Source: Candidatus Thioglobus sp. (GTDB lineage Bacteria > Pseudomonadota > Gammaproteobacteria > PS1 > Pseudothioglobaceae). Taken from it: DNA of 47,445 nucleotides. Under the pieces are notes generated by a model that was given only the letters and a program-made list of their open reading frames with translations, made no database searches and was not told the origin of the DNA. The stretch lies in NCBI GenBank assembly GCA_012964205.1, contig DTUI01000029.1, positions 1 through 47,445 of the forward strand. Reading direction: 5' to 3'. Numbering within the stretch: position 1 is the stretch's first letter; each line of letters starts with the position of its first letter. This document shows, piece by piece, positions 9,696 through 40,035 of this stretch. Made by a program: the position numbers and the translations under genes.

Positions 9696-10124
9696 TTGGA
9701 TAATTCTGAAAAAATATTGACTTTAATCAAGCCTTTTGTAGATCAAGGAAAAATCCTATCTAGAAGCAAGCAAGAGATTGAAAAAAGCATTAATGATTTT
9801 GTGTTGATATTCGATCAAGAACAACAGCTTGTTGCTTGTGCCGGTTTGAAGGATTGTCAGGAAGGTTTCACGGGTGAGATCTACTCACTCGCTGTAGCGC
9901 TAAATTCTCAAAATACAGGGCTTTCTAACGAATTACTTAATAAGATACTAGCTAGCGCCAAACAAAGGAAATTTAGTAAGATTTTCGCCTTAACTAAATT
10001 CGGCACCAATTGGTTTATAAAAAATGGCTTTATTCAAATGAGCATATCCGATCTACCAAGCAAGCGTCAAAAGTACTTTAATCATGATCGAAATTCTTCT
10101 ATCTTTTTCAAAGAGGTTAACTAA
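9696..10124 (+). CDS. GNAT N-acetyltransferase, similar to the ArgA C-terminal (N-acetylglutamate synthase) domain
   Basis: 142 aa; '[26 protein letters not shown]', '[18 protein letters not shown]' GNAT/ArgA-like pattern; TTG start; stop overlaps rnt start. Confidence 0.65.
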
Positions 10125-10729
10125 TGCAAATTAAAGATCGTATTCGTGGCTATTTGCCAGTTGTGGTAGATATTGAAACGGGTGGATTTAATTGCGAAAC
10201 AGATGCCATGCTGGAGATCTGTGCGGTAATCATTGGTATTGATGAGCATGGCAAGTTATTTCCAAAAGAGCCAGAACACTTTCACATAGAGCCTTTTTCA
10301 GGTGCCAATCTTGAACCGGCCGCATTAAAGTTTAACGGCATTGATGTTTATAATCCACTACGTGGCGCTGTTAAAGAAAAGCTGGCATTAAACGAAATGT
10401 TTAAAACCATTCGCACTGAAATGAAAACGCAGGATTGTACGCGCTCAATCTTAGTTGGTCATAATGCATTTTTTGATTTGGGCTTTTTGTACGCAGCCAG
10501 TAACCGCTCAAAACTAAAAAGTCCGTTTCATCAGTTTTCTACAATTGATACAGTTAGCTTATCGGCACTTGCATTTGGAGAGACAGTGCTTGCCAAGGCT
10601 ATTGCTAAAGCAGGCATCGAATTTGACAACAAGCAAGCGCATTCAGCACTATACGATACGGTTAAAACCGCGGAGTTATTCTGTCAGATTTTTAACAGTT
10701 TAGATTTTTCAAGCACTGAAAAAGACTAA
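10124..10729 (+). CDS. rnt: Ribonuclease T
   Basis: 201 aa DEDD exonuclease: 'LPVVVDIETGGFNCETDAMLEICAV', 'VGHNAFFDLGFLYAA', 'QAHSALYDTVKTAELF'. Confidence 0.95.
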   Translation: MQIKDRIRGYLPVVVDIETGGFNCETDAMLEICAVIIGIDEHGKLFPKEPEHFHIEPFSGANLEPAALKFNGIDVYNPLRGAVKEKLALNEMFKTIRTEMKTQDCTRSILVGHNAFFDLGFLYAASNRSKLKSPFHQFSTIDTVSLSALAFGETVLAKAIAKAGIEFDNKQAHSALYDTVKTAELFCQIFNSLDFSSTEKD

Positions 10730-11634
10730 TATTCAATCGCAAAGAATTTATTAAATTCAGCGCGTTGTTTTTGCGCCTGTTCAATATCCATTAATTCAAA
10801 CTTTATATTATCGCCCATTTGTTTTTGTGCAAGCTTGGCTAAATCCAACGAGAATACTGTGCCAATTTTCGGATAGCCGCCAATGGTTGGCGCATCTTTT
10901 AATAGGATGATGGGCAGTCCATCCGTGGCAATTTCAACACTACCATAACTTATACCCTCTGAGATCATCTTGGATTTAGTTTTAGCAATTGGCACGCCAC
11001 TTAACCTGGCACCAGTTCGATCATTAGCACTACTAATTTGATAGGTTTGTGCAAAAAATAACTCTCGTTGCTCTAAGCTAAATTCATTAAATTGATAGCT
11101 TGGTAATATTCTTAAGGTTAATGCTTGCTCATAATTAGGGATAAATTTTGCCGCCATAAAATGATTGATTTCATCATTTGATTTACTGCATTTAAGCACC
11201 TCATTAGCTTGTATTTTTTCACCGATATTTTCACGCAAATTAACTGACCTTGAGTCAAACATAACATCAGTTTCAAATCCGTCTTTAACGCACAAGTACC
11301 CCCTAACACCAGACTTTAATACACCCCAACTCAACACATCACCTTGATAAACTTGGACACTGTGCCAGGTTAATGCTCGCTTGTTGTTAATTTTAAAATC
11401 TAAATCTGCACCGGTGATACAAATAACACTGTCATTCAATACTTCAAGTGTCACACTGCCAAACACAATCTCCAAAGCAGCGGCATTAAAGTGATTCTCT
11501 AATAAGTAATTACCCCACATATAAGCCTGCTCATCCATTACGCCACTCACACTCATGCCGTAAGATGCGTGAGTTATCCGGCCGTAGTCTTGAATGCTGC
11601 TTAAAAAACCTGGATTAATGACTTTAATGCTCAT
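10726..11634 (-). CDS. pxpC: 5-oxoprolinase subunit PxpC (biotin-dependent carboxyltransferase-like)
   Basis: 302 aa; 'PGFLSSIQDYGRITHASYGMSVSGVMDEQAYMWGNYLLEN'; adjacent to pxpB and pxpA. Confidence 0.9.
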   Translation of the reverse strand: MSIKVINPGFLSSIQDYGRITHASYGMSVSGVMDEQAYMWGNYLLENHFNAAALEIVFGSVTLEVLNDSVICITGADLDFKINNKRALTWHSVQVYQGDVLSWGVLKSGVRGYLCVKDGFETDVMFDSRSVNLRENIGEKIQANEVLKCSKSNDEINHFMAAKFIPNYEQALTLRILPSYQFNEFSLEQRELFFAQTYQISSANDRTGARLSGVPIAKTKSKMISEGISYGSVEIATDGLPIILLKDAPTIGGYPKIGTVFSLDLAKLAQKQMGDNIKFELMDIEQAQKQRAEFNKFFAIEY

Positions 11635-12314
11635 AGTTTGCCACCGTTTGATAAATATTCATCTCGAGTAATCGGATAGAATGCCACCTTATCACCGGTT
11701 TTAAATTTATGAATATTTTCTGGATTATTTAATGATAAATCCAATAATATTCTACCGATAATATTCCAGCCACCAGATGAATCAGCTGGATAGACGGCTG
11801 TTTGAGAATCAGCAATACCAACACTGCCAGCTGGAATTTTGATTCTTGGTGTGGCTAAACGGGGTGCTTGAATACGCTCATCCACTTGACCCAAAAAAGC
11901 AAAGTTAGGGCTAAAACCAATTGCATGCACTAAATACTCGCCAGCACTATGAATTTCAATAAACTCATCCAAGCTCAGATCTTTCTCCGAGAGTAGTCTT
12001 TCTAAGTCCAACCCTGTTTCAAAACCATAATAAACTGGAATATGAATTATGCTGGGCGCTTTGGCCGAATCTGAAAATTGAAAATTATTTAATAAAGCTT
12101 TCACCTTATCTGAAAACTTTGAATAATCAATTTTACTCAAGTCATAATTTACCAATAATGATGTATAAGATTGTGTTTGATCAATAATTAATTCAGAATA
12201 TTGACTTTTTAGCTCATTTGCAAAATTTGCGATATTTTCAGGCAACGAGGCATCAATCTTATCGCCAAAGTAGATGAGTATTGAACTCTCCCCCGCCAGA
12301 ATGATTTTATGCAT
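11631..12314 (-). CDS. pxpB: 5-oxoprolinase subunit PxpB (allophanate hydrolase subunit 1-like)
   Basis: 227 aa; 'IPVYYGFETGLDLERLL', 'HAIGFSPNFAFLGQVDERIQAPRLATPRIKIPAGSVGIADSQTAVYPADSSGGWNIIGR'. Confidence 0.93.
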   Translation of the reverse strand: MHKIILAGESSILIYFGDKIDASLPENIANFANELKSQYSELIIDQTQSYTSLLVNYDLSKIDYSKFSDKVKALLNNFQFSDSAKAPSIIHIPVYYGFETGLDLERLLSEKDLSLDEFIEIHSAGEYLVHAIGFSPNFAFLGQVDERIQAPRLATPRIKIPAGSVGIADSQTAVYPADSSGGWNIIGRILLDLSLNNPENIHKFKTGDKVAFYPITRDEYLSNGGKL

Positions 12315-12984
12315 TTTTAAGCCTTATAAGCGCCTCTACAGAGGCTGGATTATCACTATGAAAGCAAATTGTATCAATTTTATGTGCAGTGTTACTACTA
12401 AACCGCCAAAATTGCTCAATAATACGGTCAGCATCACTTAAAACAGCCTCTTTTTCTGTTCTTGAGATCAGGTGCAATCCATCATAAGCTCGATCAGCAA
12501 ATACTTCTCGCAAAAAACCACTATGTTGATTATTTTCGAATTTTTTAAAATGATCTTCATTGCCAGCTTGCACCACCAAAGTTAAATTTGAATCAATTGA
12601 TTCAATCACTTTACACATGACGCCAAGTACAGATGGCTGATGAGTCATGTCATGATACAAAGCGCCATGAGGCTTTATGTATTCTAAAGTTGCGCCATTC
12701 TGATGGCAAAGATTTTGAAAATGCATCACTTGAGTATGGATTAAATCAAATAATTCATCCTCTGACAGGGTGTGACTAACACGGCCAAAATTAGCCTTAT
12801 CGGCATAGCTAGGATGCACACCAATGCTAACGTTATTATTGACAGCCAACCTAATCGCATCAACCATACTTTGATCATTGCCGGCATGCCCACCACAAGC
12901 GATATTAGCCATGCCAATGAGTGGCATGATATTTGCATCAAGATTAGGTGTTAAACATTCACCAAGATCACAATTGATTATCAT
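12307..12984 (-). CDS. pxpA: 5-oxoprolinase subunit PxpA (LamB/YcsF family)
   Basis: 225 aa; 'INCDLGE', 'NIACGGHAGNDQSM', 'GVHPSYADKANFGR', 'YIKPHGALYHDM'. Confidence 0.93.
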   Translation of the reverse strand: MIINCDLGECLTPNLDANIMPLIGMANIACGGHAGNDQSMVDAIRLAVNNNVSIGVHPSYADKANFGRVSHTLSEDELFDLIHTQVMHFQNLCHQNGATLEYIKPHGALYHDMTHQPSVLGVMCKVIESIDSNLTLVVQAGNEDHFKKFENNQHSGFLREVFADRAYDGLHLISRTEKEAVLSDADRIIEQFWRFSSNTAHKIDTICFHSDNPASVEALIRLKNA

Positions 12985-12990
12985 TATTTT

Positions 12991-13767
12991 CTAATTTATC
13001 TCTATATTAAATGCATGTGTTTTTCGTTTTTCTTTAGGTGGCGTCTTGGTATAGTTAGATGAATATATTTCGGTTAGATAATGATGACAATCATTTGGAA
13101 CTGGAAACTCAATCCCCTCAAACTCTAATTTTTTCAATGGTAACACCTTGCCTAGATCAAACCAGGCGGAAACATCTGGCATCTCACCACCATATATTAT
13201 TTTTGATGTGTCGTTATCCCACTCTTTGTGCAAGCAGTCTAACTCATTGATAAGCGCTTTACGCTTATCTGGACTATCTATACCGTTTGGCGTATGCAGA
13301 CTAATAGAGGAAAATGAACGAATTTTTTCCAATGTGTCACTATAAAAAGCTTGATTTTTTGGCGTGTTATCAATACTTAACATGGGGAAAATATCAACAA
13401 ACACACCTTGATGGTACTGAATGTCTCTGTCTTTTTCATGAAATTCCACTATGTCAGCCTTATTTGAGCGAAGCTTTATATAGTCAAATTTGAAGTTTTC
13501 GTCAGCTTCTTTAGTTTGAAAAAAAACATCACTAGATAGCTCACTTGTTGCGATATCCTTAAATTTATTGTAATCTTCAACCGGCATAGATAGATCAATG
13601 TCATCATCCCAAGGGATAAATCCCTGATATCTGACAGCGCCTAGCAGGGTGCCTGAATCTAGCCAATAGCTCAAATTATGTTTTGTGCAAATAGCATCAA
13701 ATTCAATCAACATATCTAAAATAATCAATTGAGCTTTTCTTAGTGTATTTTGACTTATATTGCTCAT
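12991..13767 (-). CDS. LicD family phosphotransferase
   Basis: 258 aa; 'YWLDSGTLLGAVRYQGFIPWDDDIDLSMPVEDYNKF' LicD hallmark. Confidence 0.93.
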   Translation of the reverse strand: MSNISQNTLRKAQLIILDMLIEFDAICTKHNLSYWLDSGTLLGAVRYQGFIPWDDDIDLSMPVEDYNKFKDIATSELSSDVFFQTKEADENFKFDYIKLRSNKADIVEFHEKDRDIQYHQGVFVDIFPMLSIDNTPKNQAFYSDTLEKIRSFSSISLHTPNGIDSPDKRKALINELDCLHKEWDNDTSKIIYGGEMPDVSAWFDLGKVLPLKKLEFEGIEFPVPNDCHHYLTEIYSSNYTKTPPKEKRKTHAFNIEIN

Positions 13768-13770
13768 AGG

Positions 13771-14847
13771 CTAGTTTCTACTCACTTTGTAATAATCAAA
13801 CAAGGCATCTATAAGCACATCTGTATAAGCTTTATCCACCTCACCCATGTGCGACACTCTAAATATAGTTTCCCGCTCATCACCACCATTAGGGCACACC
13901 ATTACCTTATAGTTACGCTCTAGATCATTGACAATATCGAGTGCTGATTTGCCATCTGTTGGGCTTAGTGCCGTCATAGCATTTGGCATAAATAAGGTTG
14001 CAACCTTTAGGGGTAGGCCTTCTAAGCTTGATCTAAAATATTCAGCCACTTCTTTAGCGCTAGCAATACTTTGGGAAATTCCACCCCTTTTTTCTATCTG
14101 TTTTAATCTTGCTTCTAATTGAAGCATAATGGTAACAGCAGGCGTGTAGGGCGTTTGACCTCTTTCACCATTGCTCAAATAATCTTTAAAATTAAAGTAA
14201 AGTGATTTTACAGTTTGTAATCTCTCTATTGCTTTAGGGGATAACACCACCATGGTCAATCCGGGTGGTAGGGCAAAACCTTTTTGTGAACTGGCGATAA
14301 CAACATCAATATGACTTTTCTGCATGTCTAAATCATCAGTAACCAACATAGAGATAGCATCAACAATATGCAGCATGTTATGTTGTGTAGCGTAGTCCCC
14401 TAATGCTGTTACATCATACAAACATCCAACCGAGGTTTCGTGTGCATTGACTACCAGCGCACTAAAGTCACCCTGTGGTGCAAGTGTATCAATATCACTT
14501 AGGTTGGTGTTTTTTACCTTAAAGTTTGTATTAGGTATTTCATGCGTATTGCAAATATCTACAAATCTAGCACCAAACCCTCCACCATTAACAACCAACG
14601 CATTATCATCATCATTTAGTAGATTCATCACCACAGACTCCATGCCTGCAGTGCCTGATGCTGTTAAAAATATAACTTTAGATCCTTTAGGTGCATTAAC
14701 AATATCAATCAGACCTTGTTCACAGTTATAGACAACGCGAGAAAATTCAGGGTTTCTAAAATAAGGTGTTTGCATACTGCCTATATCCAATATCTCCTGA
14801 GACATTTTTACTGGACCAGGTGTAAAAATATAGTGATCTTCGTACAT
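13771..14847 (-). CDS. Class V PLP aminotransferase, 2-aminoethylphosphonate:pyruvate / alanine:glyoxylate-like
   Basis: 358 aa; 'FTPGPVKMSQEI', 'FLTASGTAGMESVVMNLL', PLP lysine context 'IASSQKGFALPPGL'. Confidence 0.85.
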   Translation of the reverse strand: MYEDHYIFTPGPVKMSQEILDIGSMQTPYFRNPEFSRVVYNCEQGLIDIVNAPKGSKVIFLTASGTAGMESVVMNLLNDDDNALVVNGGGFGARFVDICNTHEIPNTNFKVKNTNLSDIDTLAPQGDFSALVVNAHETSVGCLYDVTALGDYATQHNMLHIVDAISMLVTDDLDMQKSHIDVVIASSQKGFALPPGLTMVVLSPKAIERLQTVKSLYFNFKDYLSNGERGQTPYTPAVTIMLQLEARLKQIEKRGGISQSIASAKEVAEYFRSSLEGLPLKVATLFMPNAMTALSPTDGKSALDIVNDLERNYKVMVCPNGGDERETIFRVSHMGEVDKAYTDVLIDALFDYYKVSRN

Positions 14848-14913: not shown

Positions 14914-15780
14914 TTAAGATTTCACCGAGCTTCTTTGAATTAGCGAGGTAAATTCAGCCATCATATATCTAAACCCACAGCCATTAAGACCATGATTAAG
15001 TGCCGATAGATAGTCTTTTTTTAATTCAGATAAAAAAACCAGACGTTTATTTTTTGCTAAATCAAGTAGCTCTTGTCGTTGCATGTCGCTCAAGTCAGAA
15101 GGCCTTTCACACAACACGTGTTTTCCATGTTCGAGTGTTTTTTTGATCAGAGCGTAGCGTTCATCTGGCTGGCAATTTATATATACAGCATCAATATCAC
15201 CACCCAAGAATTCAGTGTAATTGTTGTATCCATGTGCAACATCATTACTCTCATTGGTAAACTCTTCCATGGCTTTTGAATCTTGAGAATAGACTTGATT
15301 TATATCTAAATTAGAAACAAATTTAGATTCATCGATAAATTGCTTTGTATTACGACCAAGGTCAGCAATGCCTAGTTTCACAGTGCCAAAAATATCGCTT
15401 CTAAGTTGTGTACTAGATATACCTTGAGTTCTAGGTAAATACACCACCTGAGTGTATTTATTTAAGTAATCAAACATACCTAGCCAGTCATCACCAATAG
15501 CAAAAGTATCTACCTTGTATTTGACCATGTCCTCGGACTTTTGGTTTCTGTGTGATTCGATAATCACTTCATCAACAAACTCAATTGCCTTAATAGCTTC
15601 AACTCTTTGCTCTGTGCTTTGGGCGACATTTAGCTTACCCCGAGAACGGTCATAATCTTCATCGGTAACACCAACGATCAGATAATCTCCAAAATCCTTG
15701 GCGCGCTCTAGCAGTCTCATATGGCCTCTATGCAACATATCAAATGTTCCATAGGTGATTACTATTTTTTTCTTAACGAT
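14914..15780 (-). CDS. Cytidylyltransferase (TagD-like, HxGH) fused to a truncated Gfo/Idh/MocA NAD-binding domain; proposed non-ATG start
   Basis: Track gives 14914-15738 starting MLHRGH, but the in-frame reading continues upstream as (ATC)VKKKIVITYGTFDMLHRGHMRLL, completing the conserved nucleotidyltransferase motif. C-terminal part 'KLGIADLGRNTKQFIDES...DIDAVYINCQPDERYALIKKTLEHGKHVLCERPSDLS' is Gfo/Idh-like. Confidence 0.8.
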   Translation of the reverse strand: MVKKKIVITYGTFDMLHRGHMRLLERAKDFGDYLIVGVTDEDYDRSRGKLNVAQSTEQRVEAIKAIEFVDEVIIESHRNQKSEDMVKYKVDTFAIGDDWLGMFDYLNKYTQVVYLPRTQGISSTQLRSDIFGTVKLGIADLGRNTKQFIDESKFVSNLDINQVYSQDSKAMEEFTNESNDVAHGYNNYTEFLGGDIDAVYINCQPDERYALIKKTLEHGKHVLCERPSDLSDMQRQELLDLAKNKRLVFLSELKKDYLSALNHGLNGCGFRYMMAEFTSLIQRSSVKS

Positions 15781-16023
15781 TACAAGACTCTAATTTATAA
15801 GTGTAGTCAGAAGTATAAACTATTGACTCATAATCTCAGGATTAATCAAGCCTAGAGCTATCAATTTAAAGGTTAGTTTTGTTAATAAAATTAACCCAAT
15901 TTTCTAATATTAGAATGTAGTGGCCATACAAACCACTTGTTTTTATTTCCTGATAAAATCAATGTTTAACGCTTGTAATCAAGATAAGGACACATGCTTT
16001 TCATCAATGGAGTTTATAAATAA

Positions 16024-38967: not shown

Positions 38968-40035
38968 ATGAATAATGAAGCAATTAAATGTACAGACGAT
39001 AACATCGTTAAAGAACAAATAAAATTTGTTAATGGAAAAGAAGAGGGCTTAGAAATCCAGTGGTACAAAGATGGACAAAAGAAAGCTGAAGTCAATTTTG
39101 TTAATGGAAAAGAAGAGGGCTTAGAAATCCAGTGGTACAAAGATGGACAAAAGAAAGCTGAAGTCAATTTTATTAATGGCAAGAAAGACGGCTTAACGAC
39201 CTTTTGGAACGAGAATGGTCAGAAGAAAGCTGAAGTCAACTTTAAAGACGGCGAGCGAGATGGTTTATTGACTCAGTGGCACGAAAACGGTCAGAAGGAA
39301 TCTGAAGTAAATCTTGTTAATGGCAAGAAAGACAGTTTAACAACTTATTGGTACGGGGATGGTCAGAAGAAATCTAAAGTTAACTTTAAAGATGGAAAGG
39401 AAGATGGTTTAACAACCTATTGGTACGAGAACGGCCAGAAGAAATCTGAAACCAACTTTGCTAAGGAAAAGGAAGAAGGCTTAGAAACTCAATGGTACGA
39501 AAATGGACATAAAAAATCCGAAGTCAATTTTAAAGACGGCGATCGAGATGGTTTAGTGACTCTTTGGCGCGAAAATGGTCAGAAGAAGGCTGAAGTCAAC
39601 TTTAAAGACGGCGAGCGAGATGGTTTGGTAACTCTTTGGCATGAAAATGGTCAGAAGAAAACTGATTCTCACTTTGTTAACGGCAAGGAAGAGGGTCTAA
39701 AGACTCTTTGGCACGAAAATGGTCAGAAGAAATCTGAAGCTAACTTTAAAGATAACAAGCAAGATGGTTTATTGACTCAGTGGCACGAAAACGGTCAGAA
39801 AGAGCGTGAAGTCAAAGTTGTTAACGGCAAGGAGGAAGGTTTAGCAACCTATTGGCACAAAAATGGCCAGAAGAAAGGTAACAACAACTATGTCAATGGC
39901 AAAAAAGAGGGTTTAGAGACTCATTGGAACGAAAATGGTCAGAAGGAGCTTGAAATCAATTTTGTTAATGGAAGGCGAATTAGTTTTTTAGGCACTTGTC
40001 TGGGAATAATCAAAAGAGCTTTAAAATTAGCATAA
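38968..40035 (+). CDS. MORN-variant (YwqK-like) repeat protein
   Basis: 355 aa built from thirteen 24-aa units of type FVNGKEEGLETxWxENGQKKxEVN. Confidence 0.88.
   Translation: MNNEAIKCTDDNIVKEQIKFVNGKEEGLEIQWYKDGQKKAEVNFVNGKEEGLEIQWYKDGQKKAEVNFINGKKDGLTTFWNENGQKKAEVNFKDGERDGLLTQWHENGQKESEVNLVNGKKDSLTTYWYGDGQKKSKVNFKDGKEDGLTTYWYENGQKKSETNFAKEKEEGLETQWYENGHKKSEVNFKDGDRDGLVTLWRENGQKKAEVNFKDGERDGLVTLWHENGQKKTDSHFVNGKEEGLKTLWHENGQKKSEANFKDNKQDGLLTQWHENGQKEREVKVVNGKEEGLATYWHKNGQKKGNNNYVNGKKEGLETHWNENGQKELEINFVNGRRISFLGTCLGIIKRALKLA
39025..39960 (+). repeat. Thirteen 72-bp tandem coding repeats; units 1 and 2 (39025-39096, 39097-39168) identical
   Basis: Direct alignment of the DNA and protein; 13 x 72 = 936 bp. 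Confidence 0.92.

Follow-up and report, generated by a model that had tools for sequence, protein, structure and literature searches.

A conserved AUC codon as the probable start of a cytidylyltransferase gene in Candidatus Thioglobus

Only few bacterial genes naturally start with a codon other than AUG, GUG or UUG, the best-known ones being those for initiation factor IF3 and for poly(A) polymerase. Here, we describe a gene for a cytidylyltransferase fused to a shortened oxidoreductase domain on the minus strand of a 47,445-nucleotide stretch of DNA from the marine bacterium Candidatus Thioglobus sp. (contig DTUI01000029.1), which is called the window in the following. We consider it probable that the first half of this gene is intact and translated from a conserved AUC codon (15780-15778, minus strand), and that the gene is the first of a CDP-alcohol/LicD-type glycan-decoration operon. 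As judged from the sequence comparisons below, the codon most likely is a conserved AUC start and not the product of start loss or error, and would add a gene of an unexpected type to the small class of near-cognate starts.

The cytidylyltransferase frame, which ends with its stop codon at 14914, contains no ATG, GTG or TTG between an upstream in-frame TAG and the ATG at codon 15 (15738). Reading this interval thus confirms an earlier sequence-only reading of the same DNA, according to which no such codon precedes the conserved motif. From the upstream stop, the frame proceeds as TAG AGT CTT GTA ATC GTT AAG AAA AAA ATA GTA ATC ACC TAT GGA ACA TTT GAT ATG. Hereby, the TAG is located four codons upstream of the ATC with three codons in between, so that the in-frame stop described earlier stands, while its distance of three codons has to be corrected. 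The first canonical start, ATG 15738, is situated within the nucleotide-binding motif GTFDMLHRGH. As had been pointed out, initiation at this position would truncate the motif; GTFD and the first beta strand would go. The start region comprises the following features:

15778 to 15780, minus strand: ATC, the putative initiation codon; ATC in 4/4 gammaproteobacterial orthologues, ATG at that codon in two Campylobacterota records (L036 and L037)
15790 to 15792, minus strand: in-frame TAG, the upstream limit of the frame, from reading of the sequence
15788 to 15790, minus strand: GAG 7 nt ahead of the ATC, weakly Shine-Dalgarno-like; matches of only three to four bases, hence weak evidence
15765 to 15771, minus strand: A7 run just past the start; the other frames entering it lack a canonical start
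15739 to 15750, minus strand: GTFD part of the nucleotide-binding motif, which would be missing from a protein initiated at ATG 15738

Counted from the ATC, the two other frames are closed by stops at +5 and +19, and none of their canonical starts leads into the A7 run without meeting a stop. In line with the earlier reading, an insertion or deletion in this run would therefore not rescue a start.

We compared the gene with its homologues in a congeneric Candidatus Thioglobus sp. (G010; NZ_JAQWSS010000096.1) and in the genomes of two Gammaproteobacteria from other families (G420 and G116). G116 consists of a single contig and is rated 100% complete, and the genome of the window (G000) is a draft of 103 contigs. 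The G010 orthologue (L035) shows 74% protein identity to the window. Its aligned codon reads ATC as well; an in-frame TAA lies 18 nt upstream of it, and a canonical start is missing. The homologues of G420 and G116 (L182 and L183) are full-length fusions with about 60% identity to the window; here, too, the aligned codon reads ATC and canonical starts are lacking. Hence, all four close gammaproteobacterial homologues, representing three families in total, possess ATC at the homologous codon and lack ATG, GTG and TTG before the motif. Eleven isoleucine columns are common to the four genomes, and ATC is found in all four only at the first of them (0/10 others). The conservation of the codon in three further genomes supports the AUC start that the sequence-only reading had put forward in its title. 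Its explanation by a G-to-C change from ATG or by an assembly error, with weak translation at best, is not supported, as the change is old and present in separately assembled genomes, including the single-contig G116, and as purifying selection acts on the codons that follow. An ATG at this codon, to be looked for in related genomes according to that reading, is found in the two Campylobacterota homologues, not in the four gammaproteobacterial ones.

In the Campylobacterota record L037 the aligned ATG is preceded by a strong GAGGAGG, and L036 offers another ATG three codons further upstream. In four fusion homologues of greater distance, the ATG start precedes the motif by seven codons. Taken together, homologues with canonical starts open 7-13 codons ahead of the GT(F/Y)D sequence, L037 exactly at the codon that is ATC here, and none was found that truly begins at MLHRGH, in keeping with the upstream start assumed earlier. 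In a phylogenetic tree, the ATC sequences fall on one side of a branch with a support of only 54/63, so that a single origin and two origins of the ATC are both possible. The four sequences form two pairs and thus represent at most two, perhaps one, independent origins, which counts against the AUC reading. The fusions of G420 and G116 are 89% identical although the two genomes belong to different orders, which makes a recent horizontal transfer of the gene likely; most sampled Gammaproteobacteria lack it. Class and phylum scans for further homologues added only L190, which has an ATG, and the orthologue search in viral contigs and in plasmids yielded none. Three human-gut contigs filed as 'Bacteriophage sp.' (L186, L187 and L188; MT836586.1, MT837899.1 and MT837690.1) contain the same cytidylyltransferase-Gfo/Idh fusion with ATG starts and are probably bacterial DNA.

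To what extent the codons upstream of ATG 15738 behave as coding sequence can be judged from the comparison with G010. Within codons 2-14, four changes are synonymous and two replace a residue (V/S and K/R), and these codons thus appear to be read as protein. Over the whole gene, pS amounts to 0.61 (near-saturated), pN to 0.146 and dN/dS to 0.13. The Gfo/Idh remnant (dN 0.227, pN 0.196) evolves faster than the cytidylyltransferase part (dN 0.094, dS 1.16, pN 0.088), and this faster, truncated second half could be a hint of decay. Start loss or error would imply either that the same event was repeated or that a dead gene stayed in frame to near synonymous saturation. In an orthologue screen of 0.91 Mb of G000 against 0.31 Mb of G010, in which shadow frames were removed and 183 pairs were judged, coding-type conservation upstream of the first shared canonical start was seen for this gene only (1/183; 13/16 residues, four synonymous changes). 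Other pairs with conserved upstream residues show none to two synonymous changes, as for leaders or overlapping genes. A looser first screen had flagged 118 pairs, mostly shadow frames and leaders running into the shared start. The infC gene of G000 (L181, G000:C93 near 10001-10210), which was outside the G010 sample of the screen, shows an ATT but no canonical start at its N-terminus, so that near-cognate initiation seems plausible in this organism. In the genome stretches examined for an odd initiator tRNA, only 16 tRNAs were seen.

The encoded protein consists of two domains:

15385 to 15780, minus strand: TagD-like cytidylyltransferase domain, residues 1-132 (PF01467; TIGR01518 below cut-off; PDB 1coz; Foldseek)
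14917 to 15381, minus strand: shortened Gfo/Idh/MocA-like oxidoreductase domain, residues 134-288 (PF01408; alignment)

The first domain matches PF01467 (E 6e-19) and the sequence of PDB 1coz (E 2e-36), and 1coz is also ranked first in a Foldseek search with the predicted fold. Both nucleotide-binding motifs, HxGH and GTFD, are present in a Rossmann-like fold, as seen in sequence and predicted structure. In the structure model (mean pLDDT 77), strand 1 is formed by residues 5-9, upstream of ATG 15738; strand 1 and GTFD align to residues 2-11 of TagD 1coz, with GTFD at 8-11. The protein hence resembles TagD/TarD (PDB 1coz, TIGR01518) in sequence, predicted fold and motif over residues 5-132, but differs in its fusion to a Gfo/Idh domain, in the ATC start and in its score for the glycerol-3-phosphate cytidylyltransferase equivalog TIGR01518 (125.9 bits, below the cut-off of 165.4). 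Because of this score, we assign no substrate to the cytidylyltransferase. The second domain has lost about 165 residues of its C-terminal, Gfo/Idh-type part through an in-frame deletion in the window and in G010 (L035 3001-3897), whereas this part is present in G420, G116, L036 and L037. With most of the C-terminal part gone in these two species, the combination of N-terminal nucleotide-binding and C-terminal catalytic domain that characterizes Gfo/Idh/MocA proteins is incomplete.

Two genes follow the fusion gene in the operon:

13771 to 14847, minus strand: class V aminotransferase (PhnW/AGXT-like), the next operon gene (PF00266; adjacent in L035, L036, L037, L182 and L183)
12991 to 13767, minus strand: LicD-family phosphotransferase gene (PF04991, E 1e-41; same order in L035, L036 and L037)

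The order of fusion gene, aminotransferase and LicD is thus shared by the window, G010 and both Campylobacterota records. In G420 and G116 the aminotransferase follows the fusion gene and the sequence examined ends within it; in L190 the fusion gene stands between the aminotransferase, which precedes it, and LicD. A cytidylyltransferase beside a PhnW-like aminotransferase is also found in PntC-type phosphonate cytidylyltransferase operons (PMC6697681), but unlike in those, no PEP mutase was found in the genome of the window, which is about 90% complete. Since this enzyme was not found, phosphonate synthesis is unlikely, and the gene content would rather point to a CDP-activated amino-alcohol phosphate for a surface glycan. 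Directly downstream of LicD (10726-12984), three adjacent genes resemble, by eye, the PxpABC (YcsF/KipI/KipA) 5-oxoprolinase set. Elsewhere in the window (38968-40035), a 355-residue protein shows tandem repeats of about 23 residues (NGKEEGL..W..NGQKK), which appear MORN-like by eye.

The leader upstream of the ATC offers weak promoter candidates:

15812 to 15817, minus strand: possible -10 box TATACT within TAGTTTATAC; conserved with G010, weak
15834 to 15839, minus strand: possible -35 element CTGAGA; weak

The element TAGTTTATAC is common to the window and G010 and located about 31-33 nt before the AUC; a promoter scan found no more -10/-35-type sites than shuffled sequences give. The leaders of the window and G010 fold less stably than 197 and 199 of 200 shuffles, respectively. 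In both genomes the upstream gene is divergent, which speaks against coupling to it. Shine-Dalgarno-like matches in the relatives are AGGA at 7 nt in G010 and GGA at 6-7 nt in G420 and G116. The AUC at codon 1, 6-7 nt after a weak GAG, AGGA or GGA, is the only near-cognate codon at a sensible position common to the four genomes.

In the 2017 work of Hecht, AUC is reported to initiate only very weakly in E. coli reporters, which counts against the AUC reading. IF3 is known to discriminate against third-base mismatches at the start codon. Based on this, initiation may proceed as follows. The initiator fMet-tRNA(CAU) would pair with the AU of AUC, leaving the third base mismatched, and discrimination by IF3 against this mismatch would keep translation low. 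The weak GAG/GGA about 7 nt upstream and the unstructured, A-rich leader may aid binding of the 30S subunit. The product would combine a TagD-like cytidylyltransferase with a shortened Gfo/Idh-like domain. Its gene heads an operon that also encodes an aminotransferase and a LicD transferase, and this operon probably serves to make a CDP-activated amino-alcohol phosphate and to attach it to a surface glycan. Higher IF3 levels have been described to lower initiation at non-canonical codons (PMC2268962), and a GFP reporter starting with AUC gave stronger expression in a suppressor strain whose translation is altered (PMC8299109); translation of the present gene would hence be expected to be low and sensitive to IF3. 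A reconstruction over related genomes of limited groups counted 61,358 ancestral AUG starts, with one change of AUG to AUU, two of AUG to CUG and no mention of AUC (PMC5622118), which marks the present case as rare and counts against the AUC reading.

Apart from initiation at the AUC, the protein could arise from another non-canonical site, i.e. the AUA at codon 6, the Ile codon 8, or entry from another frame by slippage or frameshifting on the A7 run. AUA is present at codon 6 in three of the four genomes, but this codon is ACA in G116, which also disfavors the AUA start that the sequence-only reading had offered as alternative. Codon 8 is AUC or AUU in all four, but lies inside strand 1 and is Ile in the ATG-started relatives as well. 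For an entry from another frame, G116 provides an ATG 58 nt upstream in a frame open across the A run, while the three other genomes possess no canonical start in another frame reaching the run. Thus, we regard these sites as unlikely. If instead ATG 15738 were the true start, a shorter protein would be made in place of the full-length one containing KKKIVITYGTFD. This ATG is the first canonical start, and the codon is Met in all six nearest homologues; however, a protein begun there would lack strand 1 and GTFD, both conserved among the homologues and in TagD 1coz, and the codons upstream are constrained as coding sequence, so that we judge it highly improbable.

One could further assume that an ancestral ATG was mutated, that the oxidoreductase half was subsequently deleted and that the gene is now decaying as a start-lost pseudogene. 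The loss of about 165 residues from the second domain, common to both congeneric species, and the faster evolution of this domain would fit such a scenario. Yet the gene has acquired no stop or frameshift despite the pS value given above, its overall dN/dS is low, the cytidylyltransferase part and codons 2-14 are constrained and the operon partner genes are intact. Moreover, G420 and G116 keep the full-length fusion and still have ATC, which renders decay very unlikely. An assembly or sequencing error that turned ATG into ATC is conceivable in principle in a 103-contig draft, where single-base errors may occur; since the same ATC is found in three other genomes, one of them a single contig, the probability of such an error is practically negligible.

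The conserved AUC start favored here can be set beside the few known cases. In other bacteria, infC starts with AUU, which is used for feedback on IF3 itself. The gene described here shares with infC a conserved AUN start with a mismatch at the third base and the expected restraint by IF3, but it would serve glycan-precursor synthesis, has no evident feedback link and uses AUC. Further rare bacterial genes with a natural start other than AUG, GUG or UUG are pcnB, encoding poly(A) polymerase (AUU), and dsg of Myxococcus xanthus, encoding IF3 (AUC); in contrast to the present gene, these act in RNA metabolism or translation, and neither is a horizontally spread biosynthetic gene. For gene prediction, callers restricted to three start codons will truncate or miss such genes, and in the present case the active-site motif would be cut off. 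If true, a conserved AUC in a biosynthetic operon carried between orders would suggest that such starts can be tolerated, or favored by selection, in genes of ordinary metabolism. We only tentatively suggest, and are inclined to doubt, that the AUC itself is selected, keeping the transferred glycan-decoration operon at low or IF3-responsive expression after having arisen once or twice and moved between orders together with the gene. Should this be the case, near-cognate starts would act as expression limits outside of translation and RNA genes.
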